Positions 1,011-30,062 of a stretch of DNA of 36,122 nucleotides are shown here, in pieces. Source of the DNA: a virus; the IMG/VR virus record IMGVR_UViG_3300009149_000123, positions 1 through 36,122 of that record; one strand, 5' to 3'. The notes under the pieces are model-generated. The model was given only the letters and a program-made list of their open reading frames with translations, had not been told where the DNA came from and did no database searches. A program made the translations under genes and the position numbers. How positions within the stretch are numbered: position 1 is the stretch's first letter; the number at the start of each line of letters is the position of its first letter.

Positions 1011-1508
1011 ATGTCTCAAGAACTTGCACTTCAAGAATTGGAAAACGAACTAAAGTTAGCTTTTGCTGACGCTTGGTTACGTTATCCTTCTGATCCATTT
1101 AAAGCAGCTTTAGTTGTTACCAAGGGTGACTCTTTAGCTGCTTTAAGTGTTCTTGACCGATATCAAAGAGATCCCGAACTATATGATATCAAAGCTGCAT
1201 TGATCGAAGAATACGGGGAAGAAGCTTTCTTACCAAGCAAAGAGCAAATGGTAAGGCAGGTTCTTGACAGAGCGGAAAGGGCAGTTGAAGACGCAGACTA
1301 TTGTAAGCTTATGGCTTTAGCTTTCGATGCAAGAGGTATGACAAGTAAAGCTAACGGTGGTGCAAATGTTGTAATCAATAACAACACTGACAATAGAACA
1401 ATGTCAATACCAGTTATGATTAACTCTGCTGGTAATGTTGCTTCCGACGAAGAATGGGAACAAGCTTTAATTCAACAACAGAAGACTTTGGTGGCACATG
1501 ACAGGTAG
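1011..1508 (+). CDS. terS: Terminase small subunit
   Basis: This 165-residue protein lies immediately before the large terminase and overlaps it by 11 bases. The small subunit recognises packaging sites on phage DNA and hands it to the large subunit. The first about 110 residues are predicted mostly helical, with a repeat-like pattern (YPSDPFKAALVV; EAFLPSKEQMVRQVL), typical of the DNA-binding and oligomerisation part. The C-terminus is Asn- and Gln-rich and acidic. AGGTAAG at about 1002-1008 serves as ribosome binding site and overlaps the upstream stop codon. The assignment rests on position, size and helical character rather than on a signature motif. Confidence 0.7.
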   Translation: MSQELALQELENELKLAFADAWLRYPSDPFKAALVVTKGDSLAALSVLDRYQRDPELYDIKAALIEEYGEEAFLPSKEQMVRQVLDRAERAVEDADYCKLMALAFDARGMTSKANGGANVVINNNTDNRTMSIPVMINSAGNVASDEEWEQALIQQQKTLVAHDR

Positions 1509-4500
1509 TTGGACCTTACCCACAGTTGAAGATATTCAGCGACAAAAAGAAGAAGAACGCAAGTCGTTACTTTCTAATTTTGATTCGCTTACTTCACGTA
1601 TGGGCGAAAGGTCGAAACTGTTACAGCGACTAACAGAAAAACCGAAGACAAAAGCAGAAGAACTTGGCGACAGGTTGGAGCATGAGAATACAATAGTGTG
1701 GGAACCTATCCCAAACTCTTCACAATCTTTTGCTATTGCTACAAGAGCACACCATACACTAATGCACGGTGCGCGTGGTCCGGGGAAAGATATCTCTGTT
1801 AATACATTGGTTTTGACAGATAGCGGTTGGAAGAAAGCAGGCGACGTTAACCTTACGGATATGTTGGTTTCGTCCGATGGTTCGTACACCAAGTTGTTGG
1901 GTATCTACCCACAAGGTTACAAAACAAACCTGTATTTGGTTACTTTTGACGATGGTTGTCAAGTTGTTGCTGGTGCTGACCATCTATGGACTGTGGGCAA
2001 CAATAAGCGATTCAAAAGAGAAGGATACAAAGTACATACAACAAAATGGTTGTATGAAGCTCCTAGTCAATGGGGCGTTCCTTACTTGTCTAGTCCAGCA
2101 GACGGTAAGAAATGGGAAGGTTTTGATCCGTATGCAATTGGCTTAATGCTTGGTGACGGAACAATGGGTTCCCAATACCCAACACTGTATTCGCAGGATG
2201 AGGAAATCGTAGCCTACATGGAAGTAGCCCACGATTGGAAAGTATACAAATACGATCTTTACCGCGCTGTTGCCACAAAGAAATCTCAATGGAAAGCTTT
2301 AAGAGAACTATGGCCTAACAAAGAAAAAGCCGAGTTCAAAAGTGTTCCCCGTGATTTGATGGTAGCCGATCCTGCTTCCAGATTAGCGGTGTTACAAGGA
2401 CTGATGGATACAGACGGTAGTATAGAAAAAAACGGTAACAAGTGTAGGTTTGTTTCTTTATCGAAACAACTTGCAGAAGACGTGGCTGAATTGGTAAGGT
2501 CTCTTGGTGGAAAAGCACATTGTTATTTTGAAAACAGACCATCCCCGAAGGGCGGTAAAGATCATCGCTGGCGAGTTAATTTCAATTGTCGTGATAAGTT
2601 TATACCATTTCGATTGACACGAAAATGGGAACGTTGCCAGACAACCAACAGGGTACAAAACCTTAGATACATCAAGTCAATTGCACCAACTTTTCCAGAC
2701 CATACAGTTTGTTTCAGTGTTGCTCATCCTTCAAAACTATTCGTTGTTCAAGGTCACGTTCTAACACACAACACAATCACCCAACTTATGCGGTTCAGGT
2801 CAAGAGTAGGGTTAGGTTACGGTGCTTACTGGCGTGGTGTTATCTTTGACCGAGAATTTAAGAACCTATCGGACCTTGTAGCGCAGTCTTTGAGATTTTT
2901 CCCAAAGTTTGAAGATGGTTGTAAGTGGTTAAAGTCAGCAACCGAATTTAAATGGACGTGGCCTACAGGTGAAGAGTTACTATTTAGGCATGTTAAAAAG
3001 TCAGAAGATTACGACACTTTCCACGGACATGAATACCCTTTCATTGGATGGAATGAATTAACAAAACATCCAACGTCTGAGGTTTACGACAAGTTTATGT
3101 CGGTAAACCGTAGTTCTTTTGATAGGGAAAAACATACACCTATAATTAAGACTAAAGACGGTTACAGGTACAACACACCAGACGGTGAACCATTACCGCC
3201 AATAACACTTGAAGTTTTTAGCACAACTAATCCTAATGGTCCCGGTCATAATTGGGTAAAGAAAAGGTTTATTGATGTTGCTAAGAACGGTGAAGTTGTT
3301 AAAAAAGAAGTTAAGTACTTTGACACACTAAAAGGTGAAGAGGTGACTGTTGTTCGTACACAAGTTGCTATCTTCGGATCATTTTACGAAAACCCTTACC
3401 TTGATCCAATCTATCGCGCAGGTTTGATTGAATCTTGTGCAAATAACCCTAACCTTAAAGCTGCTTGGATTGATGGGCGTTGGGACGCAAATAGCGGTGG
3501 TGCTATTGATGACCTTTGGAACAGCGAAATACACATTGTAGATCGGTTTAGAATACCGAAAGCATGGAAGGTAGACAGAACATTTGACTGGGGTTCTTCA
3601 CACCCGTTTTGTACTGTATTTTGGGCAGAAGCAAACGGTGAAGAAGTTAAGATGCCTGATGGTACAACTTGGTGCCCAGCAAGGGGTTCGTTGATTGCGA
3701 TAGAAGAAGATTACGGTTCGGAAGCAATTGGAACAAACAAAGGGTTGAAGCTATCCGCTAAAGACGTGGCTTTGCGTATTGTTGCAAAAGAACGTGCTTT
3801 GTTATCAGAACAATGGATTGTAAGAGGTGTTCAAGCTGGACCGGCAGATAATCAGATTGATAATGTGACAGAAAGCGACGTTGATACAATCGCTTTTAAA
3901 ATGAAACAACACGGTATTGCTTGGACTAAATCAGATAAGTCTGCTGGTTCAAGAATAATTGGTTTGCAGTTAATGCGAGATAGGTTGCAGTCTTCTGTTA
4001 CAAAAGAAGGACCAGCTATCTACTTCATGCGTAATTGTGTTAATGCAATCGATCTGTTGCCTTCACTTCCAAGAGATCCAGACAAACCAGACGATGTTGA
4101 TTGTTGGGTTGCGGGTACAATGATTGCAACACCTAACGATGATGTTCCAATCGAATTTATTCGGAAAGGTGACTTTGTAAGTACCCCTATCGGACCAAGA
4201 AGAGTTACCAAGAGTTATGTTTCCGGTAGAGCCGCCACTACGCAAGTTTTTCTTTCAAATGGTGTTTTGAGCGAAGGCACGAATGATCACAAAATTTTTG
4301 TAGAAGGTGCTGGTCTTGTTCCTCTGTCTCTGTTATATCATGGGCTTCCTTTAACCTTGGGCGTCTCAGAATGCCAAAATACCTTGAGTATGACGGAATT
4401 CTTTACACGCGATGGGGCGACCGCGATTACTATTCGCCAAACGGAACCGTCCTTGCTAACGGCGGAACTAGCTTGCATCGACAGGTTTGGATTGACAACA

Positions 4501-5103
4501 AAGGACCAATTCCAGAGGGATTTCATATCCACCATATTGACCACAATACAGACAACAATTACATTGAAAACTTGTGTATGGTCCAGGCTTCGGAACACGC
4601 TCGATATCATTTGGCTTTACGTCGCGAGTCAGGGGAACTTGCCGCTTCTCGCGAAGCTTGGTTGGACAATGGGGGGCGGGAAGTTCTTCGCAAGAATGCT
4701 CAAAAGATGCGTGAAAACACACCCGAAAGGAAATTTACGTGCTCTGATTGTGCTTGCGAAGTTAGAACAAAACATCCGTCTCAACAGTATTGCGAAATCT
4801 GCACAACTAAAAGAAACGCAAAAGGGTATAATTCAAAACCCTGCCCTGTGTGTGGGAAAGAGTTCTTCTACAAAACACATTCAAGAAAACAAGTTAAGTC
4901 TTGTAGTGCGAAATGTGGTTGGGTGCTACGAAAAAAAGCAAGTGTATAACATTACTGTTGAACAAGCAGGTTTGTTTTACGCTAATGGGCTACTATCTTC
5001 TAACACAGAAGCAGAAGATCATTATTGGGATGCTGTTAGATACCGTGTGTTAAAAGGTTCTAACAAATGGGCAACAAAAATCAAAACAAACTTTGTAAGG
5101 TAA
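1498..5103 (+). CDS. terL: Terminase large subunit precursor interrupted by two inteins
   Basis: The packaging motor ATPase/nuclease is encoded as a 1201-residue precursor. Removing residues 98-425 (intein 1) and 869-1169 (intein 2) leaves a 572-residue extein, a normal TerL size. The extein joins GARGPGK to TITQLMRFR, restoring a P-loop GxxGxGKT. A Walker B-like stretch EYPFIGWNE lies at about residues 512-520, a nuclease Asp at about 697 in FDWGSS, and joining PDDVD to TEAEDHYWDAVRY restores the C-terminal nuclease motif. Both inteins therefore sit in catalytic motifs, so splicing is needed for function. The ATG overlaps the terS stop, and portal follows after 4 bases. The reading frame is uninterrupted throughout, including under the nested HNH gene. 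Confidence 0.95.
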   Translation: MTGSWTLPTVEDIQRQKEEERKSLLSNFDSLTSRMGERSKLLQRLTEKPKTKAEELGDRLEHENTIVWEPIPNSSQSFAIATRAHHTLMHGARGPGKDISVNTLVLTDSGWKKAGDVNLTDMLVSSDGSYTKLLGIYPQGYKTNLYLVTFDDGCQVVAGADHLWTVGNNKRFKREGYKVHTTKWLYEAPSQWGVPYLSSPADGKKWEGFDPYAIGLMLGDGTMGSQYPTLYSQDEEIVAYMEVAHDWKVYKYDLYRAVATKKSQWKALRELWPNKEKAEFKSVPRDLMVADPASRLAVLQGLMDTDGSIEKNGNKCRFVSLSKQLAEDVAELVRSLGGKAHCYFENRPSPKGGKDHRWRVNFNCRDKFIPFRLTRKWERCQTTNRVQNLRYIKSIAPTFPDHTVCFSVAHPSKLFVVQGHVLTHNTITQLMRFRSRVGLGYGAYWRGVIFDREFKNLSDLVAQSLRFFPKFEDGCKWLKSATEFKWTWPTGEELLFRHVKKSEDYDTFHGHEYPFIGWNELTKHPTSEVYDKFMSVNRSSFDREKHTPIIKTKDGYRYNTPDGEPLPPITLEVFSTTNPNGPGHNWVKKRFIDVAKNGEVVKKEVKYFDTLKGEEVTVVRTQVAIFGSFYENPYLDPIYRAGLIESCANNPNLKAAWIDGRWDANSGGAIDDLWNSEIHIVDRFRIPKAWKVDRTFDWGSSHPFCTVFWAEANGEEVKMPDGTTWCPARGSLIAIEEDYGSEAIGTNKGLKLSAKDVALRIVAKERALLSEQWIVRGVQAGPADNQIDNVTESDVDTIAFKMKQHGIAWTKSDKSAGSRIIGLQLMRDRLQSSVTKEGPAIYFMRNCVNAIDLLPSLPRDPDKPDDVDCWVAGTMIATPNDDVPIEFIRKGDFVSTPIGPRRVTKSYVSGRAATTQVFLSNGVLSEGTNDHKIFVEGAGLVPLSLLYHGLPLTLGVSECQNTLSMTEFFTRDGATAITIRQTEPSLLTAELACIDRFGLTTKDQFQRDFISTILTTIQTTITLKTCVWSRLRNTLDIIWLYVASQGNLPLLAKLGWTMGGGKFFARMLKRCVKTHPKGNLRALIVLAKLEQNIRLNSIAKSAQLKETQKGIIQNPALCVGKSSSTKHIQENKLSLVVRNVVGCYEKKQVYNITVEQAGLFYANGLLSSNTEAEDHYWDAVRYRVLKGSNKWATKIKTNFVR
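1789..2772 (+). mobile_element. Intein 1: class 3 (W-C-T) intein with LAGLIDADG endonuclease, in the TerL P-loop
   Basis: The 328-residue intein begins with Asp (DISVNTLVLTDSGW, block A) and ends in THN, with Thr as the +1 extein residue. The N-terminal residue is neither Cys, Ser nor Ala. Block B reads AGADHLWTV, with Trp two residues after the conserved His. Block F reads TVCFSV, with Cys at the usual Asp position. Block G is VLTHN with Thr before His-Asn. These are the W, C and T residues that define class 3 inteins, in which the block F Cys makes the first nucleophilic attack. Between the splicing blocks are two LAGLIDADG motifs: IGLMLGDGT and LQGLMDTDG. The boundaries are set by restoring the P-loop Gly-Lys-Thr. 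Confidence 0.93.
4102..5004 (+). mobile_element. Intein 2: Cys-type intein in the TerL nuclease motif, carrying an out-of-frame HNH gene
   Basis: The 301-residue intein begins CWVAGTMIATP (block A), with GTNDHKIFV as block B (Thr-x-x-His). It ends in VYNITVE (block F, Asn where Asp is common) and NGLLSSN (block G, Ser instead of the usual penultimate His), with Thr at +1. The boundaries restore PDDVD-TEAEDHYWDAVRY. Only about 90 N-terminal and about 30 C-terminal residues look like splicing domain. The roughly 190 residues between them match nothing recognisable and are the alternate-frame reading of an HNH endonuclease gene at 4371-4949. This is effectively a mini-intein whose linker codons double as another gene. 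Confidence 0.9.
4371..4949 (+). CDS. HNH homing endonuclease nested out of frame inside TerL intein 2
   Basis: The 192-residue protein is read in the -1 frame relative to terL. It has the layout of free-standing phage HNH homing nucleases: an N-terminal Tyr/Gly segment (YDGILYTRWG), LHRQVW, the catalytic core GFHIHHIDHNTDNNYIENL and ASEHARYH. Two Cys pair sets follow (CSDC...CEIC; CPVC...CSAKC), probably zinc-binding DNA-recognition elements. It begins with ATG and ends TAA, entirely within the intein. No strong Shine-Dalgarno precedes the ATG, so how it is translated is unclear. Frame 3 is open from 4287, and a run of seven A at 4931-4937 lies just before its stop, so a frameshift product is conceivable. 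Its likely job is to spread the intein by cutting intein-less terL. Confidence 0.85.
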   Translation: MPKYLEYDGILYTRWGDRDYYSPNGTVLANGGTSLHRQVWIDNKGPIPEGFHIHHIDHNTDNNYIENLCMVQASEHARYHLALRRESGELAASREAWLDNGGREVLRKNAQKMRENTPERKFTCSDCACEVRTKHPSQQYCEICTTKRNAKGYNSKPCPVCGKEFFYKTHSRKQVKSCSAKCGWVLRKKASV

Positions 5104-18545: not shown

Positions 18546-20692
18546 TGGCACTTGGAAGTAACAACCAATACAATAGCGGTTCTAATAATGGTATACGCAC
18601 ATTCAACGGAATTAAAACTTCTGGTTTTAGAATTGGCGTAACTCAAAAAGCCGAAGAGTTAAACAACAATAACACAATTAACCTTGGGACAACTGTTAAC
18701 TTTGTACGCGCAGCCGATAGCGGTAAAGACAGAACAGGTTCTTCGAATAATCGTGTTAACCAACGATCAAATGAAGCAAGGTTAAACGAAAGAATACCAG
18801 ACATTTACGGTAAAGTGTTAAGCGTTCCTGATTTATTGACAAAAACGTACATACTAATTGAAAACGATGCATCTTTTTATATCAATTACTTTTGCATTGG
18901 TCGTGGTTCTTTTACAGTTAGTGAAGTTGAAGAGGCAGGAAGTACGATACTATCTTTAGGTGGAGAATACGATGTTTATGGACCTAACACTTCTCCGATT
19001 ACTTCACTAGGAACCATAAATTCTGTGTTTGTTCCAGCAATTGATTCAGTTGGTGTGAAAACTAATGACTTATCCGCATGTTTAGTCCTTAGGCCACCAA
19101 ACGCAATACTTGTAACAGATGCTTTAGAAGGCGACACAGAGGGTTTTGTTTTCGAAAGAGGACCATACGTATTTGAAAATTGTAATGGAGTATTAGTAAA
19201 TCTTGTTGCTAGTGATGGTACGAAAAGTCCGGGAGATTATGTAAATCCAGCTATTACAGTTACTGTGTATTGCAGGGCTGTAAATGAAGCGAATGTTCCT
19301 TTTGGTTCGACTTATTCTTCTGCCTACACGTACATTGGTTTTACAAACGATGCTTTAGCTACAAGCAGATACCGTAGTTTCAATTACGACTTTCCAATAA
19401 GCGGAAGAGTTCAGGTTGTAGTTAAAAGAACTAGCAATTACGCAGGTCATGAAACAGCATCTTTTCATAGAACAGTATACTTGTCTGGAATATACGGAAA
19501 AGTAGATATGTTAGGAAAAACTCAATTTGGCGACGTTACAACAATTAGAACTAAAATTCCAACAGAGGGTGACCTTTTGGCTAATGTTGGTACTGCATCC
19601 TTTAAGTTTACTACCACGTCAAGATCAAGTTTTTCACCAAAAGTCACATGCCTTGCCCAACGTAAAATTGACGGTGTTGCTACATCAGAATTTTCAAAAA
19701 TAGCTAAGTCTATTTGCTTAGACGAAAAGATAGGAAACAGACAACTTGCTGAGATTGACTCTGCTAGTCTCACTGCCTTACAATCTAGTATTACTTCTTA
19801 TTTTGGAACAAGCAAGGCTTGCGAATTCAACTACACTTTTGACGACGAAGCTATAAGTTTTGAGGAAACTTTAGGTTCGGTGTGCGCAGCAGCGTTTGTC
19901 ACAGTGTACAGAGACGGACCAACAATAAAATTTAAGTTCGAAGGACCGAACACAGCAAGTCGTCTACTTTTCAATCACAGAAACAAGATACCCGGAAGCG
20001 AAGTAAGAAGTATTACTTTTGGTTATCTTGGAGAAAAGGACGGGGTTCGTTACGAGTACACCGACATAACAGATGGTGCCAAACTGTACTACATACTTCC
20101 GATAGACGAATCTGCGGTAAATGTAGAGTCAGAAACTACTGTGGGCATAACAAACAAGCTTCAAGCTTACTTTCACGCACATAGGCGTATGAACCGTCAG
20201 CTTTACCAGAATACGGTTGTAGAGTTTGAAGCAACACAAGAAGCTAATGTTCTAAACATTAAAGACAAAATAGTTGTTGCTGATAATACGAGAACTCAAA
20301 CGTATGATGGTGAGATAGTTTCAAAAAGTGGTTTGACTCTAACGTTGTCTCAACCGTACACGTTTGAAGTTGGTGTAGACGCCACTATCTTTATTCAAAA
20401 CGTAACAGGTGAAGTTGAAGCTATCGGCATATCTGAAGTTGTCGGGCAACCTTATAAGGTGTTGCTTGACTCAGATACAAGCGAAGACTTATCTTTAGCC
20501 AATTCTGCTTTTACTAAAGCAACTTACGAGATAGTTCCAGACACTTCACTTAGGCGTGAAGCTTTTCTTGTGGAAGAGAAAGAACAAATTGATAAAATGA
20601 CGGTTCGATTGTTAGCTGTTAACTACGACGTTCGTTACTACAATGGAGACAATGACTACCTTACCGGTGTTGTTGATATCAACGGTAACTAA
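18545..20692 (+). CDS. J-like tail tip / central hub protein
   Basis: The 715-residue protein contains NERIPDIYGKVLSVPDLLTKTYILIENDASFYINYFCIGRGSFTV, the signature stretch of host-specificity protein J-like tail tip attachment proteins, and later SEVRSITFGYLGEKDGVRYEYTD. It probably forms the tail-tip hub and channel end. It is the last gene of the rightward late operon and overlaps the leftward polymerase gene by 4 bases. No separate tail fibre follows, so receptor contact may lie here or in the repeat-bearing tail protein. Confidence 0.8.
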   Translation: MALGSNNQYNSGSNNGIRTFNGIKTSGFRIGVTQKAEELNNNNTINLGTTVNFVRAADSGKDRTGSSNNRVNQRSNEARLNERIPDIYGKVLSVPDLLTKTYILIENDASFYINYFCIGRGSFTVSEVEEAGSTILSLGGEYDVYGPNTSPITSLGTINSVFVPAIDSVGVKTNDLSACLVLRPPNAILVTDALEGDTEGFVFERGPYVFENCNGVLVNLVASDGTKSPGDYVNPAITVTVYCRAVNEANVPFGSTYSSAYTYIGFTNDALATSRYRSFNYDFPISGRVQVVVKRTSNYAGHETASFHRTVYLSGIYGKVDMLGKTQFGDVTTIRTKIPTEGDLLANVGTASFKFTTTSRSSFSPKVTCLAQRKIDGVATSEFSKIAKSICLDEKIGNRQLAEIDSASLTALQSSITSYFGTSKACEFNYTFDDEAISFEETLGSVCAAAFVTVYRDGPTIKFKFEGPNTASRLLFNHRNKIPGSEVRSITFGYLGEKDGVRYEYTDITDGAKLYYILPIDESAVNVESETTVGITNKLQAYFHAHRRMNRQLYQNTVVEFEATQEANVLNIKDKIVVADNTRTQTYDGEIVSKSGLTLTLSQPYTFEVGVDATIFIQNVTGEVEAIGISEVVGQPYKVLLDSDTSEDLSLANSAFTKATYEIVPDTSLRREAFLVEEKEQIDKMTVRLLAVNYDVRYYNGDNDYLTGVVDINGN

Positions 20693-20705
20693 AACAAACT
20701 TAGTT
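20687..20705. terminator. Weak hairpin between the convergent operons
   Basis: AACTAA and TTAGTT are perfect 6-base arms around a 7-base loop exactly at the convergent junction. It is AT-rich and has only a short T-rich flank, so termination is a guess from position. Confidence 0.25.
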
Positions 20706-22656
20706 GTTCTTGCTGTGTTGTTTTGTAGAAACCTAAGTCTTTTAGAATGGAGTGTGATCGACGAATGTACCAAGAGTAATCAATATCTTTTGGTAGTATG
20801 CCTAACTCCATAGCAGGACAAGCGCCGTCTGATTCAGCAACTTTGTTTGTTGATCCTGCGGCGTTTGGTTTTTTATAGTAAATAGCCCCGTAGTCATCTT
20901 TCCTAACATACCAGCGAACAACTTTACCCAAGTCCACTTTGTCTCTTACAGCACCACCGTTAACACGACGAACGAACAAGAACTTTCTGAAGTCAGTACA
21001 AGACTTAATAATAGCGTCTATTGTTGTTGGGTGTGGATCTTTACAGGTCTGTAAGAATCGCATGACAGCTTCGGAGCAAATCGTAGCGTTTGGGTTAGTC
21101 ATCAAGCTTTCGCGGTCAGGATTACCCATTGACAGTTCATTGACGTAAGCCCCTTTGGCCTTAATCTTGCCGTCTGGACAAATGGCTATGTAGCTGTTCA
21201 CGTCGCGGCTATGTACGCTCTTGTAAGGCGTTTCCTCAGTCTCGAAGTTCGTTTGTCGTTCCCACTCAGCGACTACCCACAGATAGACGCCATGTAGCTC
21301 ACGTGGGCAGTTAATAACGATTCCGTCTGTGTTGGCGCTCAGAACCGGAATGCCTGCTAACTCAAGAGCTTCAATCAGTAGAAGCAATGATAGCTGACCA
21401 GTAAGCGTAACCTGAACTAACAAATGTGGCGAATAGAAGATTGACCAGCGATTACCAAGCTTACCGAAGCAACCGTTAATACAAATCTTTAAGCTTTCTG
21501 CTGTTTGTTTGTCACCCTGACTCTTAGCCAGAAGGCGACGTTCAACGATATCTCGATAAACGTTTAGGAAGTCTCGCCCAATATGGTGTGGGTACAACTC
21601 TTGGTTCAAAATGATTCGCGGGTAATAACTAGCCACGTCTCTATCAACAATCATATGTGTGTCTGTTGTGTAGATCGAACGTGACTTTTCTTCCGAATGT
21701 AAACCACCTATGCCTAAGTTGTAAACAGTTTTGTTAACTTTTACGGTCCAAAGGTTCTTTGCTGATATCTGATCGCCGCCTTCTATCACCTTGACTTTAC
21801 CTTCGTTGTCAATGACAAAGGTTGTGTTAAAGATTTTATCTCTAAGGTTGCGAAGTAATGGTGTTTGGTAGTTTAAATACTTTGGATCATTAAAGTTGAA
21901 TCGCTCGCCTTTGGGCGTAGGCGGGGCTTTTTGAAATTTGCCGGTCGTTGCCCGCAATTCAGATCCGATTGCTTTCTCCGCAATCTGTGCGTCCGACAGC
22001 GACCGCAAATCGATCCGGTATGTGCGAGACATTGACGATCGAAGTTCGATTGGCGTTTTCAGCTTGTGATAGAGCAAACCAGTCACGTCAAGATCATTAA
22101 CACAATAGAACCTTAGTTCACTAATCATTTCTTGGCTAACCGCCAAAGTGTGATCTATTGGTAATTCTTGCAATCGTTGTGAGTGCATTCTAGCACCATA
22201 ATGTTTCAACGATAGTTTTTGCGCGGCTGCTGGTGCTACCTGTTGCAAGTCAATATGATTAAAGTATTGGCATTGGTAGTTAAACTTAGCTTCTGTTTCC
22301 TTTGGTTTCATTTCACCAATAATAATGGAATCAGACAAAGCTTTTAATTGCTCTACCCATAGACCACACAGATATGCCCACAGTATGTGCTGATCGTAAT
22401 GACGGCTGTTGTATCCAACAAGCGTGTTGTTATCAATCATCCATCGCAACTTAGCTTTGTCTATTGTTGCAACTGCTGACTCTTCGAAGAATACGACAAC
22501 ACCAGTGTCGTAAGACTTCATTGCTATAAGTAGAAAGTTCTCGAATAGCTCAATATCAAAAAACCACACAGTGCCCTTGAGACTTATGATTTGTTCATCA
22601 GTCGCAAATAGCAAAGGTGGTTTAGTGTACGATTGTTTTTCGTAGGTTCGTGTCAT
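20689..22656 (-). CDS. Family B DNA polymerase with proofreading domain and C-terminal clamp-binding peptide
   Basis: The 655-residue protein has all 3'-5' exonuclease motifs: FDIE (33-36), NSRHYD (83-88) and YCVNDLDVT (184-192). Polymerase motif A is DRDVASYYP (338-346), motif B is KICINGCFGKLG (about 390-401) and motif C is ANTDG (441-445). Motif C has Asn where most family B enzymes have the first Asp of Asp-Thr-Asp. The protein ends QLSLF, a canonical bacterial beta-clamp-binding pentapeptide, so it may recruit the host sliding clamp for processivity; no phage clamp is seen. It is the last gene of the leftward operon and starts ATGA-overlapped with the preceding small gene. Confidence 0.92.
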   Translation of the reverse strand: MTRTYEKQSYTKPPLLFATDEQIISLKGTVWFFDIELFENFLLIAMKSYDTGVVVFFEESAVATIDKAKLRWMIDNNTLVGYNSRHYDQHILWAYLCGLWVEQLKALSDSIIIGEMKPKETEAKFNYQCQYFNHIDLQQVAPAAAQKLSLKHYGARMHSQRLQELPIDHTLAVSQEMISELRFYCVNDLDVTGLLYHKLKTPIELRSSMSRTYRIDLRSLSDAQIAEKAIGSELRATTGKFQKAPPTPKGERFNFNDPKYLNYQTPLLRNLRDKIFNTTFVIDNEGKVKVIEGGDQISAKNLWTVKVNKTVYNLGIGGLHSEEKSRSIYTTDTHMIVDRDVASYYPRIILNQELYPHHIGRDFLNVYRDIVERRLLAKSQGDKQTAESLKICINGCFGKLGNRWSIFYSPHLLVQVTLTGQLSLLLLIEALELAGIPVLSANTDGIVINCPRELHGVYLWVVAEWERQTNFETEETPYKSVHSRDVNSYIAICPDGKIKAKGAYVNELSMGNPDRESLMTNPNATICSEAVMRFLQTCKDPHPTTIDAIIKSCTDFRKFLFVRRVNGGAVRDKVDLGKVVRWYVRKDDYGAIYYKKPNAAGSTNKVAESDGACPAMELGILPKDIDYSWYIRRSHSILKDLGFYKTTQQEQLSLF

Positions 22657-22871
22657 TGAATGATTAACTCAGGATACAAGTCCAAAGGATAGCAAGTAAA
22701 AGGTTGATCCCAAGTTCCACTTTGTAATCCGGGAAGCAACTTCAATTCGTTTAACCTGATTCCTACTTCTTTAGGGTAAAGACAACCTTGGAAAATGGAT
22801 TCGTCGAAGTCTGCTTCGCCTTCAGTGTAGAACTTACCTGAATCTTTGTAATAAACACACTTAATCTGCAT
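22653..22871 (-). CDS. Unknown 72-residue protein upstream of the polymerase
   Basis: ATG at 22871 is preferred over an in-frame TTG at 22886 because AAAGGAAA precedes the ATG at good spacing. The short protein (MQIKCVYYKDSGKFYTEGE...) has no recognised motif. It overlaps the polymerase start by ATGA, suggesting coupled translation. Confidence 0.65.
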   Translation of the reverse strand: MQIKCVYYKDSGKFYTEGEADFDESIFQGCLYPKEVGIRLNELKLLPGLQSGTWDQPFTCYPLDLYPELIIQ

Positions 22872-22882
22872 TGTTTTCCTTT

Positions 22883-23347
22883 TCAATTATCGATGCTTAA
22901 CAACTCGGTTTGTCTTTCGTTTAACTCAATTATCCACTCTTCTTTTGGTGCTTTCTTTTCTAATGCGTACCTACGAAGAACACTTGCTAACTCTTCAATC
23001 CTTTGCTCAAGAAAAAGTTGTCTTGGCATGATACCTTTTGGTGGCATCGCCTTTAGAGACTTAGTTGATAAAAGTGACTGCGGGGAACTTACTCCATTCT
23101 CACCGTCTGAGTTTTCAAGTTCGCCACCATAGTGGACAGGTTGTATTTCTTTGAACCATTCACCTGTTCTTGCGCGATGAATGTAGTTCTCTGCCTTTTG
23201 CAACTCAGCTACAATATCGTCTTTCTTTCCAAGTCGCAATATATGTTTTAGGGCACACAGTATCCAATGCTTTTTGAAATCTGGATAACCTGACTTCTCA
23301 AGGTTAGCAGAAACACCTTCAATTACTTCGTGTGGTTGGTGGCTCAC
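22883..23347 (-). CDS. DUF3310-like protein
   Basis: The 154-residue protein starts at GTG 23347, overlapping the upstream TGA. The N-terminal part (HPHEVIEG-like start, then DFKKHWILCALKHILRLGKKDD, ELQKAENYIHRA) follows the DUF3310 pattern in which a helix with K-x-x-x-R-x-x-x-K precedes a Leu-x-Lys-Ala-x-x-Tyr-Ile helix. The second half is a linker and a helical Arg/Glu-rich tail (EQRIEELASVLRRYALEKK). Such proteins are common in phage nucleotide and replication modules; the molecular role is not established. Confidence 0.65.
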   Translation of the reverse strand: MSHQPHEVIEGVSANLEKSGYPDFKKHWILCALKHILRLGKKDDIVAELQKAENYIHRARTGEWFKEIQPVHYGGELENSDGENGVSSPQSLLSTKSLKAMPPKGIMPRQLFLEQRIEELASVLRRYALEKKAPKEEWIIELNERQTELLSIDN

Positions 23348-23619
23348 GTTTCTTGTCCTTTTCTTTTAATTCTTAAATTTTCTAAACATTCGTCACATTG
23401 AACTAACCCGTTAAGGTTTTCGTTCTTACAACTTACACAAAGCCCTAATCTTTGGTATCTTTGTCTTCTTAGAGTTTCACCCTTTGACCTTTTCATCCTA
23501 CAGTTACCACAGCGAATAAATCCTTTAACTTCGCAACCACAACCTACGCAAACACCTTGTCGTCTGCGATCGTTATACAGTTGATTGATCAAAACAAAAA
23601 CTCCATAACTTATGGCCAT
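23344..23619 (-). CDS. Small zinc-ribbon protein with four Cys pairs
   Basis: The 91-residue protein carries CVGCGC, CGNC, CVSC and CDEC in order, spaced as two treble-clef or ribbon units, within a strongly basic sequence (RRQRYQR; RIKRKG). It is probably a nucleic-acid-binding or adaptor protein. It starts inside the last codons of the helicase (10-base overlap) and overlaps the next gene by 4 bases, so it is made together with the helicase. Confidence 0.75.
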   Translation of the reverse strand: MAISYGVFVLINQLYNDRRRQGVCVGCGCEVKGFIRCGNCRMKRSKGETLRRQRYQRLGLCVSCKNENLNGLVQCDECLENLRIKRKGQET

Positions 23620-25262
23620 TTGTCGGAAAAGTCAACTCTCAACTGTGTACACTTACGACAAGTGTTAAACCTAACGTAAGCTTCTTCTGTTGTTTGCGGT
23701 ATTTCATCGCCTTGGTGTTGACGCCACCATTCATGGGCTTTGTGTTTAGCTAAACCACTACCTTGAAAAGATAGGTAAACATTGATTGTGTTAATACCGT
23801 GGAAGTACTGTACTCGCAAAGAAGGTGGTTTACCAACCTTGTTATGAATGTAGGCATAACAATTGGTAACAGGAACTATTTTCACATTGGGTTCTGTTCT
23901 GGCGATGATAACTTCAGTTGAAGCAGAAGGTTTAATCTTTGTTTTGAAAATGAATTCATGCCCACACTCGCAGAGTCTTGCTGTTGTGTGGCAGTAGTTA
24001 CCGCATTCAGGACAAATCTTAATTGGTACGTCACCAGAACCGTCACCTTTCTTGCGACTTGGTATAGCGGGGTCGTTAATAGGGCCAAGTCTAGCGGTAT
24101 TACCTGCAAAGTCAAGTACGATGCAGTTTTTCTTACCACCTTCTTCAATTGCTGCTTTACGATAATGCAGGTGTTGTAAGTGTTCGAAAGTGTACCACGG
24201 GGCAAAGTAAGGTCTTGTTCCCCTGCCGTACTTCTGGATGTGTAGTGGTATTGACGTTGTTGGTCTCAAGTCAATGATTGCGTCAACCAAAGGATGATCA
24301 AAACCAGTTGTCAGAATGTTGTTTGAGACGATAGCTCTAAACCTACCTGTCTTGAACGCAGATAGTCTTTGTTCTCTTTCTTCGTCACTAATCTTAGAAT
24401 GAACACAGGTTGTTGGAATACCCATTTTATTTAAGATATTCATTATCTGTTCAGTATTCTTAATACCTGCTGCAAATACTATCCAACACTTGCGATCAAC
24501 GCAAAGCTGCGCGGCTTCGTTCAATGCTCTACCTGTAATACCCTGCCTTGCTATTGTGTCAATCAACTGTCTTTCGTTAAAGTCATTCGCTAATTGACGA
24601 ACATCGCTAACGTCAATAAAGCTTTCTGTTTGTTTTGGAATTAACGGAGATAGGTAACAGTCGTCAATCAGTTGATTAAACGCTTCTCTTCCCGTTATGT
24701 CAAAAGCTGTTGCGTTAAAGATTGAATCAACTTCAACACCATCCCGAAACACTTTGTCTGTGAGTCTACCCTGCCCCATACGAAAAGGTGTAGCGGTTAA
24801 ACCAATTACTTTGAGGTAAGGATTGTAGTTCTTCAAGTCGTCAATGACCTTTTGGTACATTGAGTCTTCGTTAGGTGAAAGCAAGTGTGCTTCGTCAATG
24901 AATAGTATGTCTCGCTTACCGATAGCTTTCACGTTACCGTTAACAGTAGCGATACCACCAAGTACGATAGGTGCGTGACCTTCTTTGACTCCTAAACCTG
25001 CTGAGTAGATTGAGGCAGGTACTGTTGGCCAGACGTTTCGTAAAGCTTTGTAGTTCTGTTCGATCAACTCTTTAACATGAGTCAATAAAACCATACGTTG
25101 ATCAGGGTATTGTTGCAACGCACGCTGCATGAACATAGGCGGGTATAACGATTTGCCAGTACCTGTGGGCATAGCTACAATCGGATTACCTGTTCCGCCA
25201 CTCTCAAAGTATTCAAAGGTTTTTTGAACAGCTTCTAACTGGTATGGTCTTGGGTATATCAT
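23610..25262 (-). CDS. SF2 DEAH-box helicase with zinc-finger insertion
   Basis: The 550-residue protein has Walker A MPTGTGKS, Walker B FIDEAH, motif III TATP, a helicase-C region (VHSKISDEER; SNNILTTGFDHP) and motif VI QKYGRGTR. After the helicase core a CPECGNYC...CECG zinc-binding site and a C-terminal domain (RVQYFHG...AHEWWRQH) follow, an arrangement common in phage replication or recombination helicases. ATP-driven duplex unwinding or branch migration is the expected activity; the replicative helicase is more likely the PrimPol fusion. It overlaps the small membrane protein by ATGA. Confidence 0.9.
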   Translation of the reverse strand: MIYPRPYQLEAVQKTFEYFESGGTGNPIVAMPTGTGKSLYPPMFMQRALQQYPDQRMVLLTHVKELIEQNYKALRNVWPTVPASIYSAGLGVKEGHAPIVLGGIATVNGNVKAIGKRDILFIDEAHLLSPNEDSMYQKVIDDLKNYNPYLKVIGLTATPFRMGQGRLTDKVFRDGVEVDSIFNATAFDITGREAFNQLIDDCYLSPLIPKQTESFIDVSDVRQLANDFNERQLIDTIARQGITGRALNEAAQLCVDRKCWIVFAAGIKNTEQIMNILNKMGIPTTCVHSKISDEEREQRLSAFKTGRFRAIVSNNILTTGFDHPLVDAIIDLRPTTSIPLHIQKYGRGTRPYFAPWYTFEHLQHLHYRKAAIEEGGKKNCIVLDFAGNTARLGPINDPAIPSRKKGDGSGDVPIKICPECGNYCHTTARLCECGHEFIFKTKIKPSASTEVIIARTEPNVKIVPVTNCYAYIHNKVGKPPSLRVQYFHGINTINVYLSFQGSGLAKHKAHEWWRQHQGDEIPQTTEEAYVRFNTCRKCTQLRVDFSDKWP

Positions 25263-25426
25263 TCTGACTCAAATGCCTTTTCAATTAACTGTACTACCGG
25301 AATCAGAATGTAGATTGGCCAGATCAGTACAATATAAACACCGGCAGCAAAAATAGAGAAAGGATAGCTTTCGCTAATTAACGCTTCTGTGTTTTCCATG
25401 TACTTTAAGATTATGTTCGAAAGCAT
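25259..25426 (-). CDS. Small single-span membrane protein (55 residues)
   Basis: This short gene reads MLSNIILKYMENTEALISES, then a roughly 25-residue hydrophobic stretch (FSIFAAGVYIVLIWPIYIL), then an acidic tail ending FESE. AAGGAAAC sits just before the ATG, and TGA overlaps the helicase ATG as ATGA, so spacing and signals agree with a real gene. One membrane span is predicted. The role is unknown. Confidence 0.65.
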   Translation of the reverse strand: MLSNIILKYMENTEALISESYPFSIFAAGVYIVLIWPIYILIPVVQLIEKAFESE

Positions 25427-25435
25427 AAGTTTCCT

Positions 25436-25633
25436 TTATACACAGTTGTAACAATTAGAAACAAAGTCGCCACAAACAACACATATCAGCCCAAGTTTTT
25501 GAGGTGAAGCAAGCGTATGCCAACACTTATCTGTTGGAAAGAATTTAATCTCTGTCTCACCGTGCAGAGTAATACGGTACTTACAATACCAAAAGTTTTG
25601 TCCGTGTATTATTGGTATTTGTAGTATTACCAT
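25436..25633 (-). CDS. Small Cys-containing protein of unknown function (65 residues)
   Basis: The protein contains WYCKYR, CWHTLASPQKLGLICVVCG and CYNC, compatible with one small zinc-binding fold. Its ATG overlaps the stop of the Cas4-like gene as TAATG, supporting translation. No family recognised. Confidence 0.6.
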   Translation of the reverse strand: MVILQIPIIHGQNFWYCKYRITLHGETEIKFFPTDKCWHTLASPQKLGLICVVCGDFVSNCYNCV

Positions 25634-26496
25634 TATTTAACCCCTTCGTGGTGATCACAACCTAACGGTATAAAGTCTGTTGGTATGACGTTCCCATGCA
25701 ACTTGCAGAACCAATTGCCTTCAGTTGCTGTACCTGCGTGTATGCAACTTCTACAGTTCTTTTCTGCTTTTCCTTCAAAATGACAAATATCCTTGAAGTT
25801 ACAGAACTTGCAATCAAAGTTGGTAGAACTATTTGAAATCTTAGGCGGGGCAACATCGGCTGTGATAATTGCCATTGCTTTGTCTTTGAGCATTCTACCA
25901 TGCTCTCTGTCAAGCTTCAAGAACTCAACGTGTATATCGTCTGTGTTCTTGTTAACCACTACGAACAAAGCGTAGTTAAAGTCACCAAGTTCAGCGGAGA
26001 AACACATCTGGTCCCAATACTTTGGTTCAGCGGTTATTACCTTTTTCTTCTGCATCTTGTTGAAGTTTGTATCACTTGCTGTTTTAATTTCAAGCAATAC
26101 TTTTTCAGTTACGCCAAACTTTTCAGGCAAGTGTATCACACCGTCAAGCTTAGTTACAGCGTGATCGTGGCAATCTGAATAAGTCTCTTGGCTTTCATCA
26201 GTCGACAATAACTTGCAGCCAATAGCTTGAAGTAAACCTACAACAACAGGTTCTTCGCGATGACCACGGTTGAACAACCTGAAGACTTGCCCTGCCGGTC
26301 TGTTCTCAGATCCGAATTCGTCTTCTTTAACCCAACGAAAACCGTACCAGATTTGACGAGAACAAGGCTTACCAATTGCACTACTACCAAGCCTACGACT
26401 TCGCCAACGATCAGCAGACTTTTCACAATAGTCATCAATCTCAACTTCTATTGTTTCTGCTATTTGGTTGCGTGTCTTGAAGTCGTTAATGTCCAT
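25633..26496 (-). CDS. Cas4/RecB-like PD-(D/E)XK nuclease
   Basis: I start at ATG 26496 (MDINDF) because AAAGG lies about 9 bases upstream; this gives 287 residues and an 11-base overlap with csrA. The nuclease core is visible as LDGVIHLP, then LLEIKTA (Glu-x-Lys), then YWDQMCFSA (motif with Gln), the order of the RecB/Cas4 exonuclease family. C-terminal Cys residues CKFCNFKDIC and CRSC...C could bind an Fe-S cluster or zinc. In phages such enzymes act in recombination or DNA-end processing beside Sak/SSB genes. There is no CRISPR locus here. Confidence 0.8.
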   Translation of the reverse strand: MDINDFKTRNQIAETIEVEIDDYCEKSADRWRSRRLGSSAIGKPCSRQIWYGFRWVKEDEFGSENRPAGQVFRLFNRGHREEPVVVGLLQAIGCKLLSTDESQETYSDCHDHAVTKLDGVIHLPEKFGVTEKVLLEIKTASDTNFNKMQKKKVITAEPKYWDQMCFSAELGDFNYALFVVVNKNTDDIHVEFLKLDREHGRMLKDKAMAIITADVAPPKISNSSTNFDCKFCNFKDICHFEGKAEKNCRSCIHAGTATEGNWFCKLHGNVIPTDFIPLGCDHHEGVK

Positions 26497-26665
26497 TACT
26501 AGGAACCTTTCTTTTTGCGTCATCGACTTCACCACGGTCAATCAAAATGTCTCTTGGTGCGTCAATACTGAGTCTTACTTTTCCAGACTTAATCTCGACA
26601 ATCCTAATGATTATTTGACCTTCGATTACAATCGTTTGGTCTACTTTTCTTGACAAAACTAACAT
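26486..26665 (-). CDS. csrA: CsrA/RsmA-type RNA-binding translational regulator
   Basis: The 59-residue protein begins MLVLSRKVDQTIVIEG, continues IIIRIVEIKSGKVRLSIDAP and RDILIDRGEV, the full CsrA core. Leu4 and Arg44, the residues that contact GGA in target RNA, are both present. CsrA dimers bind GGA motifs at ribosome binding sites and repress or stabilise mRNAs. Its ATG directly follows the methyltransferase stop (TGA then ATG) with AAAGGA upstream, and its 3' end overlaps the nuclease gene. It may retune host metabolism or motility, or time phage mRNA translation; that is inference. Confidence 0.92.
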   Translation of the reverse strand: MLVLSRKVDQTIVIEGQIIIRIVEIKSGKVRLSIDAPRDILIDRGEVDDAKRKVPSNGH

Positions 26666-27484
26666 TCAAAGTCCTTTCGAATTTATTTCAGACAATCTTT
26701 GCTCAATTGACTTACAATTGAATTCACTAACATCAGTGGCAATGCAAGACCTACCTAGCTTCTTAGCGACTGCTATTTCTGTACCACTTCCACCAAAACC
26801 ACAGAAGCATAAATCACCCGGTTCAGTGTAGGCAAGAAAGAATCGTTCTGCGTAGTTTTCAGGTAACTGGTTAGGATGACCTTCGCGACGTTCTTTATTG
26901 TTTCCTTGCACTCTTCCCCAATTTGGCGAACCTTCTATTGGTTCTAACGGCATAACGTCTTCTGTTTTAATTCCCCACACAGTACCGAAAGGAACGTAAC
27001 CTTTGTACTTACTTGTTTCAACTCGCTTGTCGCCCATTAGTAGGCGTTTGGATGGAGTCATAACAGATTCGACATACCACTTGCGGTTATTGCCCGGCTT
27101 GCGTAACACGATAGCTCTACAGTGGGCATCGACGAACTTGTTGAAGGTACATTGACCAAAGTTGTAAGCCCAACAAATCTCATTTTCAATAAACTGATCT
27201 AATTTGGTTTGAAAGCACGCTCTTAGTATCTCGCGACTTGCAGCAATCGAACCATGCAGGACTAACGCAGCGCCCGGTTTAAGCTTATTCCAATGACAGA
27301 TAATCCATTCGATTGTAAAAGCTGTGTACTCTTCTGCTGTTAGTTCGTCATCGTAACCATTGTACTTTTGGCCGATGTTAAACGGTGGATCAGCAATCAT
27401 GAAATCAAAATTCGGGCAGAAAATACTCTTGAAGTAGACTCTGCAATCTTGATTCACTATCTGATAAACCAAGTTCTCGTTCAC
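26666..27484 (-). CDS. DNA adenine-type methyltransferase (beta class)
   Basis: The 272-residue protein has the catalytic motif IADPPFN near residue 30 and the SAM-binding motif FCGFGGSGTE near residue 230, the order of beta-class N6-adenine/N4-cytosine enzymes; DPPF favours N6-adenine. The late GHPNQLPENYAERF precedes the SAM motif as in this class. The start is GTG 27484, since the next Met lies in the catalytic motif; this overlaps the upstream zinc-binding gene by 80 bases. No cognate restriction gene is visible, so it likely protects phage DNA from host enzymes. Confidence 0.88.
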   Translation of the reverse strand: MNENLVYQIVNQDCRVYFKSIFCPNFDFMIADPPFNIGQKYNGYDDELTAEEYTAFTIEWIICHWNKLKPGAALVLHGSIAASREILRACFQTKLDQFIENEICWAYNFGQCTFNKFVDAHCRAIVLRKPGNNRKWYVESVMTPSKRLLMGDKRVETSKYKGYVPFGTVWGIKTEDVMPLEPIEGSPNWGRVQGNNKERREGHPNQLPENYAERFFLAYTEPGDLCFCGFGGSGTEIAVAKKLGRSCIATDVSEFNCKSIEQRLSEINSKGL

Positions 27485-27626
27485 TGTGCATTAACCTTGA
27501 AAATCCGAAACAATACAAACAGAGCACATAACCTTCATTGCATTTATCGCAACCGTCAGCCAAACAAGCAGGACAACTCAACTCGCCAACATTTAAACAA
27601 ATAGGGCAATCACACCGTTCAACCAT
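27405..27626 (-). CDS. DnaJ-like zinc-finger small protein
   Basis: From ATG 27626 the 73-residue protein starts MVERCDCPIC and carries CPIC, CPAC, CDKC and CLYC, four Cys pairs arranged as in a DnaJ central zinc domain. An upstream in-frame TTG at 27650 is possible but less likely. Its last 80 bases overlap the methyltransferase gene in another frame, an unusually long overlap for this compact operon. Regular Cys spacing makes it likely real. Confidence 0.6.
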   Translation of the reverse strand: MVERCDCPICLNVGELSCPACLADGCDKCNEGYVLCLYCFGFSRLMHSERELGLSDSESRLQSLLQEYFLPEF

Positions 27627-27650
27627 TGGACTTATCCGGCTATTGTACAA

Positions 27651-27803
27651 TGGTGAATGAATGCGATTGCCCTTGATCTGCTTATCTGCGTCTGGTATTA
27701 CTGCTTCACTAGCTTTTCAGCTTTCGGGTCTTTCAGGTATTCAGATTACCAGAAACTACTACAATACCTTTTTCGTTCTCACAGATTTACTTTCCTTTTA
27801 AAG
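27651..27803. other. Non-coding stretch downstream of the tRNA-like gene
   Basis: No ATG occurs on the minus strand across these 153 bases, and GTG starts run only a few codons. A small AGCT/AGCT hairpin at about 27708-27720 is the only structure noticed. With the tRNA-like gene and the inverted repeat next to it, this makes a 322-base gap in an otherwise packed leftward operon. Confidence 0.5.
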
Positions 27804-27909
27804 AGGATCTAGCAGGATTCGAACCTGCGAACACTAAGCGTTATCATTTACTTAGTGGTTTCACTTTAAACATTCGGTTAAAGTGCGTGTTCCTTCTCGC
27901 CTTAGATCC
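27804..27909 (-). tRNA. tRNA-like gene with long variable arm and abnormal anticodon loop
   Basis: On the minus strand a 7-bp acceptor stem (GGATCTA/TAGATCC) encloses a 3-bp D stem (GCG/CGC) with GG in the loop. An anticodon-like stem, a long variable arm (CACTAAG/CTTAGTG, 7 bp) and a perfect T arm (GCAGG-TTCGAAT-CCTGC) follow. The fold is class II (Leu/Ser/Tyr/Sec-like). The anticodon arm is odd: TTTAA/TTAAA closes an 8-base loop CCGAATGT with C where U33 should be. U8 is also A, and no CCA follows (discriminator T). No amino acid can be assigned. It could be a degenerate tRNA or a tRNA mimic. Confidence 0.7.
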
Positions 27910-27910
27910 A

Positions 27911-27972
27911 AATGCTTGGTTAACCATGTTAGGCAGGACACAACCTTTACACGATTAACCAAGCTGAGCATT
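27911..27972 (-). repeat. Inverted repeat between the SSB gene and the tRNA-like gene
   Basis: CTTGGTTAA and TTAACCAAG (9 bp) flank a 31-base interior, extended outward by AATG/CATT beyond a 5-base bulge. The interior can form a short GTT/AAC helix. It begins right after the SSB stop codon. It may be a processing or transcription-attenuation structure that releases the tRNA-like RNA; there is no T-run for simple termination. Confidence 0.5.
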
Positions 27973-28683
27973 CTATCCTTGCTGTGCCCAAGGTGGTGCA
28001 GCGCCCGGTGCCGGTGGTTGCGGCATCTGTGGTTGCTGTGGCATCTGTGGTGGTTGCGGAGCATACTGCTGTGGTGCTGGTTGCATCGGAACATCTTGAA
28101 CAGCGTATTGCTGTTGCGGTTGTGCCGGTGCTGCTACCTGTTGCTGTGGCTGTGGTGGTGTTGGGAATCCACCTGTTGCCTGTGGTGGTGCCGGTTGCGC
28201 GGGTGCGGGCATTGCCGGGGCCGGGGCCGCGGTTGGTGCTGCGTTAGACTTACCCTGTTCACCCGGTTTGTTACCTTGCAAGTCAAAGTATTTCTTGACT
28301 TCTGTGTAACCTTCAGACTCTTTGCCTTTTTGGAATCCAACAACAGCACGGAAAGGTTTGTTATACAAAACCGAAAGGTCTTGTAGTGGTTGCACCCAAC
28401 CAACAACATAACAGATTGCAGACAGATCACTGTAGGCAATTCTTACTGCGTCTGTATTCGAATTGCCAATGTTCAGACGAATAACACCAGTAGCACCAGA
28501 CGACGGTCCTTCTGTAATCTGAACGTTAAGTTGAAGGTAACTACCAGTGTTGTCGTTAGTTGGTTTTTGGTCAGCACTTGTGATGATCATAACATGACCA
28601 GTTTCGCTGCTGATTGGAAGCTGACCAACACCACCTGTGTTTGGTGCAACCTGTGTTGGGTCAAAAGGTGTGTTTAACTGCAT
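27973..28683 (-). CDS. Single-stranded DNA-binding protein (DUF669-like) with Pro/Gln/Ala-rich tail
   Basis: Residues about 1-140 show the DUF669 pattern: GGVGQLPISSETGHVMI, PTNDNTGSYLQLNVQITEGPSSG, RLNIGNSNTDAVRIAYSDLSAIC. This family is found beside Sak4-like recombinases and acts as phage SSB. The C-terminal 95 residues are Pro-, Gln- and Ala-rich and end PPWAQQG. They lack the acidic tip of host SSB, so partner binding may differ. The low-complexity part produces a spurious open frame on the opposite strand. Confidence 0.8.
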   Translation of the reverse strand: MQLNTPFDPTQVAPNTGGVGQLPISSETGHVMIITSADQKPTNDNTGSYLQLNVQITEGPSSGATGVIRLNIGNSNTDAVRIAYSDLSAICYVVGWVQPLQDLSVLYNKPFRAVVGFQKGKESEGYTEVKKYFDLQGNKPGEQGKSNAAPTAAPAPAMPAPAQPAPPQATGGFPTPPQPQQQVAAPAQPQQQYAVQDVPMQPAPQQYAPQPPQMPQQPQMPQPPAPGAAPPWAQQG

Positions 28684-28721
28684 TACTCAATCCCTATTAC
28701 TTTTCTTTGTAAAGCTTGTCT

Positions 28722-29393
28722 CTACGATAGAGACTTAGCGAAAATGTTTTTCAGGTTAGCTAACTCCAACTCAGCAAGTTTACCTGACCTATCCCCTGCT
28801 TCGTACTGTGAACTACGCTTACAGCGTAATACTTCTTGTTTGACTTGTGTTGTAGGGTCAATGTACTCTTCCATGTGGTAGACCGAACCAAGCAAGTAAG
28901 GTAGCATCGGAGCTACTGCTTTACCCGGAATACAAGGACCGTAAATAAGACCACCTGTTGATTCGTCTTTGATACGCTCCTGTTTACAGATCAGAACAAC
29001 AATGTATGCAGTCTGACTACGCCAAAATCGTATAACCCTCATCATTTCGTCATTCAATGCACCGTATGCCTGCATTAAATTCTTGTGCTTAGGTTTCTCA
29101 AGCACAAGGAACAACTCAGCCAGTTCAGTTAGATCGTCAATGACCACAGTACCGAATTCATTTAACTGACCTACTTTTGCTGCTTCTTCGAATTGTAAAT
29201 AATTGCCCCAAGTCACGCAACGGTGAAACGGCAAGTTATGCTCACGAATGCTGCTCAAACCTTCGTCTGTTGAACAGATAACCGGGTTATCACACGTCGG
29301 TATCAATCGCGTCTTACCTGACTTTGCTGGACCGTAGACTAAACAGTGTGGGCAATGCTTCAAGGTGTTCGTTGATAGTAACTGTATCGTCAT
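28722..29393 (-). CDS. Sak4-like RecA-fold ATPase (recombinase)
   Basis: I start at ATG 29393 (MTIQLLS), preceded by GAAAG, rather than an upstream TTG; this gives 223 residues. Walker A is GPAKSGKT at about residues 22-29 and Walker B is TVVIDDL at about 82-88. The later IKDESTGGLIYGPCIPGKA fits the minimal RecA core of Sak4 annealing recombinases. Together with the SSB downstream and the Cas4-like nuclease it makes a plausible recombination set. An unusual CPHC sits just before the P-loop. Confidence 0.82.
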   Translation of the reverse strand: MTIQLLSTNTLKHCPHCLVYGPAKSGKTRLIPTCDNPVICSTDEGLSSIREHNLPFHRCVTWGNYLQFEEAAKVGQLNEFGTVVIDDLTELAELFLVLEKPKHKNLMQAYGALNDEMMRVIRFWRSQTAYIVVLICKQERIKDESTGGLIYGPCIPGKAVAPMLPYLLGSVYHMEEYIDPTTQVKQEVLRCKRSSQYEAGDRSGKLAELELANLKNIFAKSLS

Positions 29394-29498
29394 TGGTTTT
29401 CTTTCAGTTGAATTAAAAGTTGTGGCACTCTCTCCACCCGTCAAGCCTGTGTCTTTTGATCCTCAATAGCATTCCGGCTTCCCCGCTCACGTTTCGTA

Positions 29499-30062
29499 TT
29501 ACTTAGGTGCAACAAACTCAAGACCGGGTGTGCCCGGTGTAGTTGTAATGATTGCATCCAAAATTGCTTTCTCAGCTTCGCTGCATTCACGATATGTAGT
29601 TTCGCTAAGTGAAGCCGAAAACTTGAGTACACGATCGGCGCGACTTGCAGCTTCACCACCCAATGACCGTAATTGCATTACAGCGTTTGCAGCTTCGTAG
29701 TTAGTGTTAGCTACTTTGATGTTGACTGTTTTCTTGCACTTCAGTGCATAATCACCATTAAGCTTTGCTGTGATGGTTCCCTTTTCCTTGTTTGAATTAA
29801 ACAGGTGAGAATTGCAAATCTCTAACCTTAATTCAAGTTCGCGTTTCTTAACGGCTTTCAAATGCTCGTCAAGCTTAACCCATTCCATGATTTTGGAATC
29901 TAGCGAAGCTTGATCCATCTGTGGTGCGGTAGGGAACGCGGCAGACTGTAGCGGCATCGGTTGTGCGGCTGGAAACATCTGCGGGTTAGGTTGCGGTTGT
30001 GGCAAGCCCCAATTTTGTTCTTGGGGCTGCGTCATCTGTGCTGGTGTTGTTGGCCAATTCAT
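29499..30062 (-). CDS. Unknown 187-residue protein, first gene of the leftward early operon
   Basis: The N-terminal 45 residues are Pro/Gln-rich and disordered. A helical region (EWVKLDEHLKAVKKRELELRLEI) and a beta stretch (GTITAKLNGDYALKCKKTVNIKV) follow, then a helical acidic end. This layout is familiar from uncharacterised phage proteins located directly before Sak4-like ATPases, so a role in recombination or replication is likely by association only. It is the gene closest to the leftward promoter, so probably among the earliest expressed. About 105 bases without a gene separate it from the next start. Confidence 0.75.
   Translation of the reverse strand: MNWPTTPAQMTQPQEQNWGLPQPQPNPQMFPAAQPMPLQSAAFPTAPQMDQASLDSKIMEWVKLDEHLKAVKKRELELRLEICNSHLFNSNKEKGTITAKLNGDYALKCKKTVNIKVANTNYEAANAVMQLRSLGGEAASRADRVLKFSASLSETTYRECSEAEKAILDAIITTTPGTPGLEFVAPK

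Follow-up and report, generated by a model that had tools for sequence, protein, structure and literature searches.

A short csrA gene within a phage replication module and its predicted independence of FliW

Phage-borne csrA and the gene of this record

CsrA is a common bacterial protein that turns mRNAs on or off. Its gene is annotated in many phage records, including 27 CsrA-annotated records of Vibrio phages, and CsrA proteins make up the PHROG families 9500 and 8397. A survey of phage genomes counted csrA in 30 of 2517 phages (Sobrero and Valverde, 2020; PMC7366521), and phage RsmA homologues in GenBank and IMG/VR are described, with an anti-CRISPR role suggested, by Campa et al. (2021; PMC8450108). 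The gene considered below is thus one further example of a type already described, and the view of a first-pass annotation, that it is short enough to be missed by routine gene finding, does not fit these many annotated copies and their PHROG families; such genes are not typically overlooked.

The window, which is the whole 36,122-base stretch of viral DNA analysed, contains a single csrA copy, an open reading frame of 59 codons on the minus strand (26665 to 26486) with the translation MLVLSRKVDQTIVIEGQIIIRIVEIKSGKVRLSIDAPRDILIDRGEVDDAKRKVPSNGH*. The first-pass annotation had placed a 59-residue CsrA with its core, including Leu4 and Arg44, at 26486-26665; coordinates and residues are right, and the strand, which it had left unnamed, is the minus strand. 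Translation of the plus strand over 26486-26665 yields nothing CsrA-like. The protein matches the Pfam CsrA family (PF02599) over residues 1-50 with 62.4 bits (E 3.8e-17, cut-off 27) and PHROG 9500, a family of CsrA-like regulators, with 48.4 bits. A profile built without the window protein scores it at 80.2 bits, against 11.9 for the best of 2000 residue shuffles.

L4 and R44 are critical RNA-contact residues of CsrA (PMC7652899). Both are retained in the window protein, as are R6, K7, A36, P37 and E46, in agreement with 37 viral and 82 bacterial CsrAs. Position 7 is K in all viral and bacterial sequences of the set, where E. coli has R, a uniformity owed in part to the search pattern used (MLVLSRKV). 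An AlphaFold model of the monomer (pLDDT 82.5, pTM 0.55) finds its best PDB matches in RsmE, RsmA and CsrA (TM mostly 0.70-0.75, probability 1.00). The identity of the protein as CsrA is therefore well supported by family profile, RNA-contact residues and predicted fold, and the copy is real and intact, its sequence bearing no sign of decay. Base composition does not mark the gene as clearly foreign (GC3 0.30 vs 0.40, SD 0.07).

Genomic setting, sister phages and donor lineage

The csrA gene lies within a replication and recombination module (20689-30062, minus strand) delimited by profile matches and by gene-by-gene correspondence with sister phages. Its genes encode a DNA polymerase, a helicase, a Cas4-domain exonuclease, a methyltransferase, an SSB and an ATPase whose Sak4-like label is a reading of its AAA_24 match. 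The upstream neighbour is an N6/N4 DNA methyltransferase of 272 residues (26666-27484, minus strand; PF01555, 104.5 bits), the TGA of which (26668-26666) is followed directly by the csrA ATG at 26665. The csrA ribosome-binding site (AAAGGACTTTGA-ATG, with AAAGGA; 26666-26685, minus strand) includes a GGA and is contained in the final part of the methyltransferase gene. Downstream, the gene of the Cas4-domain exonuclease (25633-26505, minus strand; PHROG 1990, 278.5 bits) begins inside the end of csrA, as read from the sequence, so that the overlap with the next gene claimed earlier stands. The same annotation spoke of an early operon: the operon corresponds to the minus-strand replication module, whereas the early timing was inferred. 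Within the module, a 322-base intergenic gap (27651-27972) neither matches Rfam nor contains a GGA cluster.

Three sister phages (L040, L041 and L042) share the replication module gene by gene, and the window also contains terminase, portal and tape measure genes. Since phage replication genes flank it as well, csrA belongs to the phage genome and not to a host flank.

Relatives whose polymerases are 68-75% identical to that of the window were found, and two of them carry csrA, each at another site. In L042 (polymerase 75%) the gene lies between the DUF7173 and Sak4-like genes and is packed equally tightly, with a stop codon and two bases before its ATG and an ATGA overlap at its end. In L040 (genome G001; polymerase 68%) it is found far off, at contig position 963-1139, upstream of the genes for a 324-residue protein and thymidylate synthase. 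The methyltransferase and exonuclease genes are adjacent, with no csrA between them, in L040, L041, L042 and L045. The three csrA genes are intact although their proteins are only about 50% identical. Thus csrA occurs in a small phage clade but not at one fixed site, and the local novelty is that close sister phages carry it at three distinct genomic sites.

Three separate gains, or one gain followed by relocations, both fit this pattern. The tree is compatible with the three sister csrAs forming one clade (AU p 0.46), and codon identity between them, as a test of common descent, came to 10 vs 8.1 expected, a comparison without power. Among more distant polymerase relatives, most of them fragments, 0 of 32 carry csrA. 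No related polymerase was found in 29 other csrA-bearing viral contigs, in a search that had no positive control, and a search with the exonuclease protein found no relatives.

The left arm of the G001 sister (L161, 1-7200), which includes csrA and genes for thymidylate synthase, a deoxyribonucleoside monophosphatase-like and a pyrophosphatase-like protein, is missing from the window, and for this reason the window genome may be incomplete. The gene for the terminase large subunit (1498-5103, plus strand) reads as 1201 residues because two inteins appear to be inserted in it. The first putative intein, with a LAGLIDADG domain, interrupts the Walker A motif behind GPGK and apparently begins with Asp, which would be unusual; the second lies near the terminase C-terminus (CWVAGTMIATP...LLSSN, followed by T) and has a weak Hint match. 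In the G001 relative GPGKT is uninterrupted.

The phylogeny with bacterial CsrAs that had been proposed as a route to the donor lineage, built here from 124 CsrAs with 59 residues from the window, puts the window protein close to three sequences from Chloroflexota (95/83), but its branch has a length of 1.78, and 59 residues do not fix a donor. The nearest bacterial cores are those of Chloroflexota (54-64% identity) and of Pirellulaceae/Planctomycetota MAGs. Polymerase relatives number seven in 392 Planctomycetota genomes, all distant (28-35% identity) and no pointer to a host, and zero in 400 Chloroflexota genomes. A tRNA scan of the window found none, and promoter and terminator scans were at chance level. 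The five Planctomycetota genomes inspected for csrA hold 6-14 paralogues each, the three Chloroflexota genomes one copy each.

FliW contacts and candidate targets

In Campylobacter jejuni, CsrA is bound by FliW only if V51, N55 and the C-terminal context of these residues are present, and binding is also lost when a deletion makes N55 the last residue of the protein (PMC7829508). At these two positions the window protein has K51 and P55; it stops at residue 59 with no C-terminal extension, and so falls outside the FliW-controlled subgroup. With the extension and the V51/N55 pair both absent, it should, on sequence grounds, escape FliW. The pair V/I51 and N55 is present in 0 of 37 viral and 19 of 82 bacterial CsrAs, and N55 alone in 2 and 22 of them, respectively (p 0.006); median lengths are 64 residues for viral and 78 for bacterial proteins. 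Both sets were gathered with the same N-terminal search patterns and contain related members, which makes such p-values rough. Many planctomycete CsrAs likewise have no N55, and its absence from the window protein may accordingly be a plain legacy of a donor in which FliW was never used. Gamma-proteobacterial CsrAs are also without the C-terminal extension, and the build is therefore not unique to the phage.

The reading favoured here, with moderate confidence, is that the window gene encodes a functional, minimal and FliW-insensitive CsrA that adds to the CsrA activity of the cell, mainly on host mRNAs; dimer, RNA binding, FliW insensitivity and host targets are predicted. The protein would form a strand-swapped homodimer and bind GGA in single-stranded RNA (as A-N-GGA presented by hairpin loops) at ribosome-binding sites, blocking or altering translation. 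It would be produced alongside the replication proteins, likely via translational coupling in the operon, and would raise CsrA activity during infection, affecting mainly host mRNAs for motility, metabolism and possibly defence, while FliW, the bacterial antagonist of CsrA, would be unable to grip it. The intact open frame, the good ribosome-binding site and the tight packing between conserved genes are consistent with a functional gene, and rewiring of the host by the phage CsrA is plausible.

Possible, though not likely, is a role on the phage's own mRNAs, in which CsrA would control when expression passes from replication to structural genes, or act on the GGA of its own ribosome-binding site to repress itself and its operon. 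That GGA might conceivably serve as an autoregulatory site, the gene is packed tightly against both neighbours, and about half of the phage leaders contain GGA, on which the first-pass annotation had based its suggestion of phage mRNA targets. The leader counts, made with simple gene calls of our own, weaken a role on phage mRNAs: GGA-bearing leaders are as frequent in csrA-less relatives (116/221) as in csrA-carrying phages (53/105; p 0.81), the share of leaders with two GGAs is lower in the latter (7/105 vs 35/221, p 0.02), and A-N-GGA leaders are alike in both (p 0.34). SELEX-type consensus sites, a weak test for CsrA targets, number 24 vs 28.9 expected from shuffles and are not above chance. 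Most leader GGAs simply belong to the Shine-Dalgarno sequence, and in the sister phages csrA stands at other sites. A search for a CsrB-like GGA-rich small RNA was negative: nothing matched Rfam, and GGA clustering did not exceed that of shuffles.

As a special case of host targeting, the protein might act as an anti-defence factor that represses host CRISPR-Cas or other defence mRNAs, a role that we consider rather unlikely. RsmA represses CRISPR-Cas in Serratia, and Campa et al. proposed that phage homologues do likewise (PMC8450108). Improbable, finally, is a captured passenger, or a dominant-negative CsrA that titrates small RNAs or host CsrA and regulates no targets itself: the patchy occurrence and varying position of csrA, and the differences from E. 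coli at E15, G16 and G45, would suit it, but the RNA-contact residues L4, R6, R44 and E46 are intact, three related phages keep the gene intact at only about 50% protein identity, and the composition is not clearly foreign.

Comparison with known systems

Bacterial CsrA and RsmA proteins (E. coli CsrA, Pseudomonas RsmA and RsmE) share with the window protein the core of residues 1-50, the contacts L4, R6, R44 and E46, and the predicted fold. The window copy differs in being phage-encoded and, at 59 residues, in having no C-terminal extension, and it departs from E. coli CsrA at K7, E15, G16, D43 and G45. Among the closest bacterial cores is that of a Chloroflexota MAG (L054; 64% over residues 1-47), an example of the FliW-controlled CsrAs encoded in flagellar operons, which also stands near the window protein in the tree (95/83, long branch). 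It has 85 residues, with V51 and N55, none of which applies to the window protein, and its gene follows others read by eye as flgN, flgK, flgL and fliW.

RsmQ of plasmid pQBR103 (PMC9928087) is likewise a CsrA of a mobile element, reported to bind RNA and to alter host motility and metabolism, and could by analogy be a model for how the window CsrA works; its carrier, however, is a conjugative Pseudomonas plasmid and not a phage. The plasmid CsrAs found are 34-47% identical to the window protein. The phage CsrA and RsmA genes described in PMC7366521, in PMC8450108 and in Vibrio crassostreae phages correspond to the window gene and likewise lie in genomes of tailed phages; they are diverse and seem to have been acquired on several occasions. 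No close relative of the window CsrA was found in 50,697 phage records, the nearest hits having about 40% identity (E near 0.5).

If active, the gene would be a further instance in which a global translational regulator comes from a phage, here from a group for which the searched phage records contain no close csrA. A rather doubtful extension of this is that CsrA serves the clade as a movable regulatory cassette blind to FliW: repeated capture or relocation would have placed it in different, tightly packed operons, and trimming would have left an RNA-binding core beyond the reach of the host's protein antagonist. The idea of FliW escape asks whether a CsrA trimmed to its core acts free of host control. 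Relative to the known phage CsrAs, the window gene is set apart by its location in a replication operon, flanked by the methyltransferase and exonuclease genes, with the sisters' copies elsewhere; the added interest lies only in this shifting position within a small clade and in a build without the FliW contacts.
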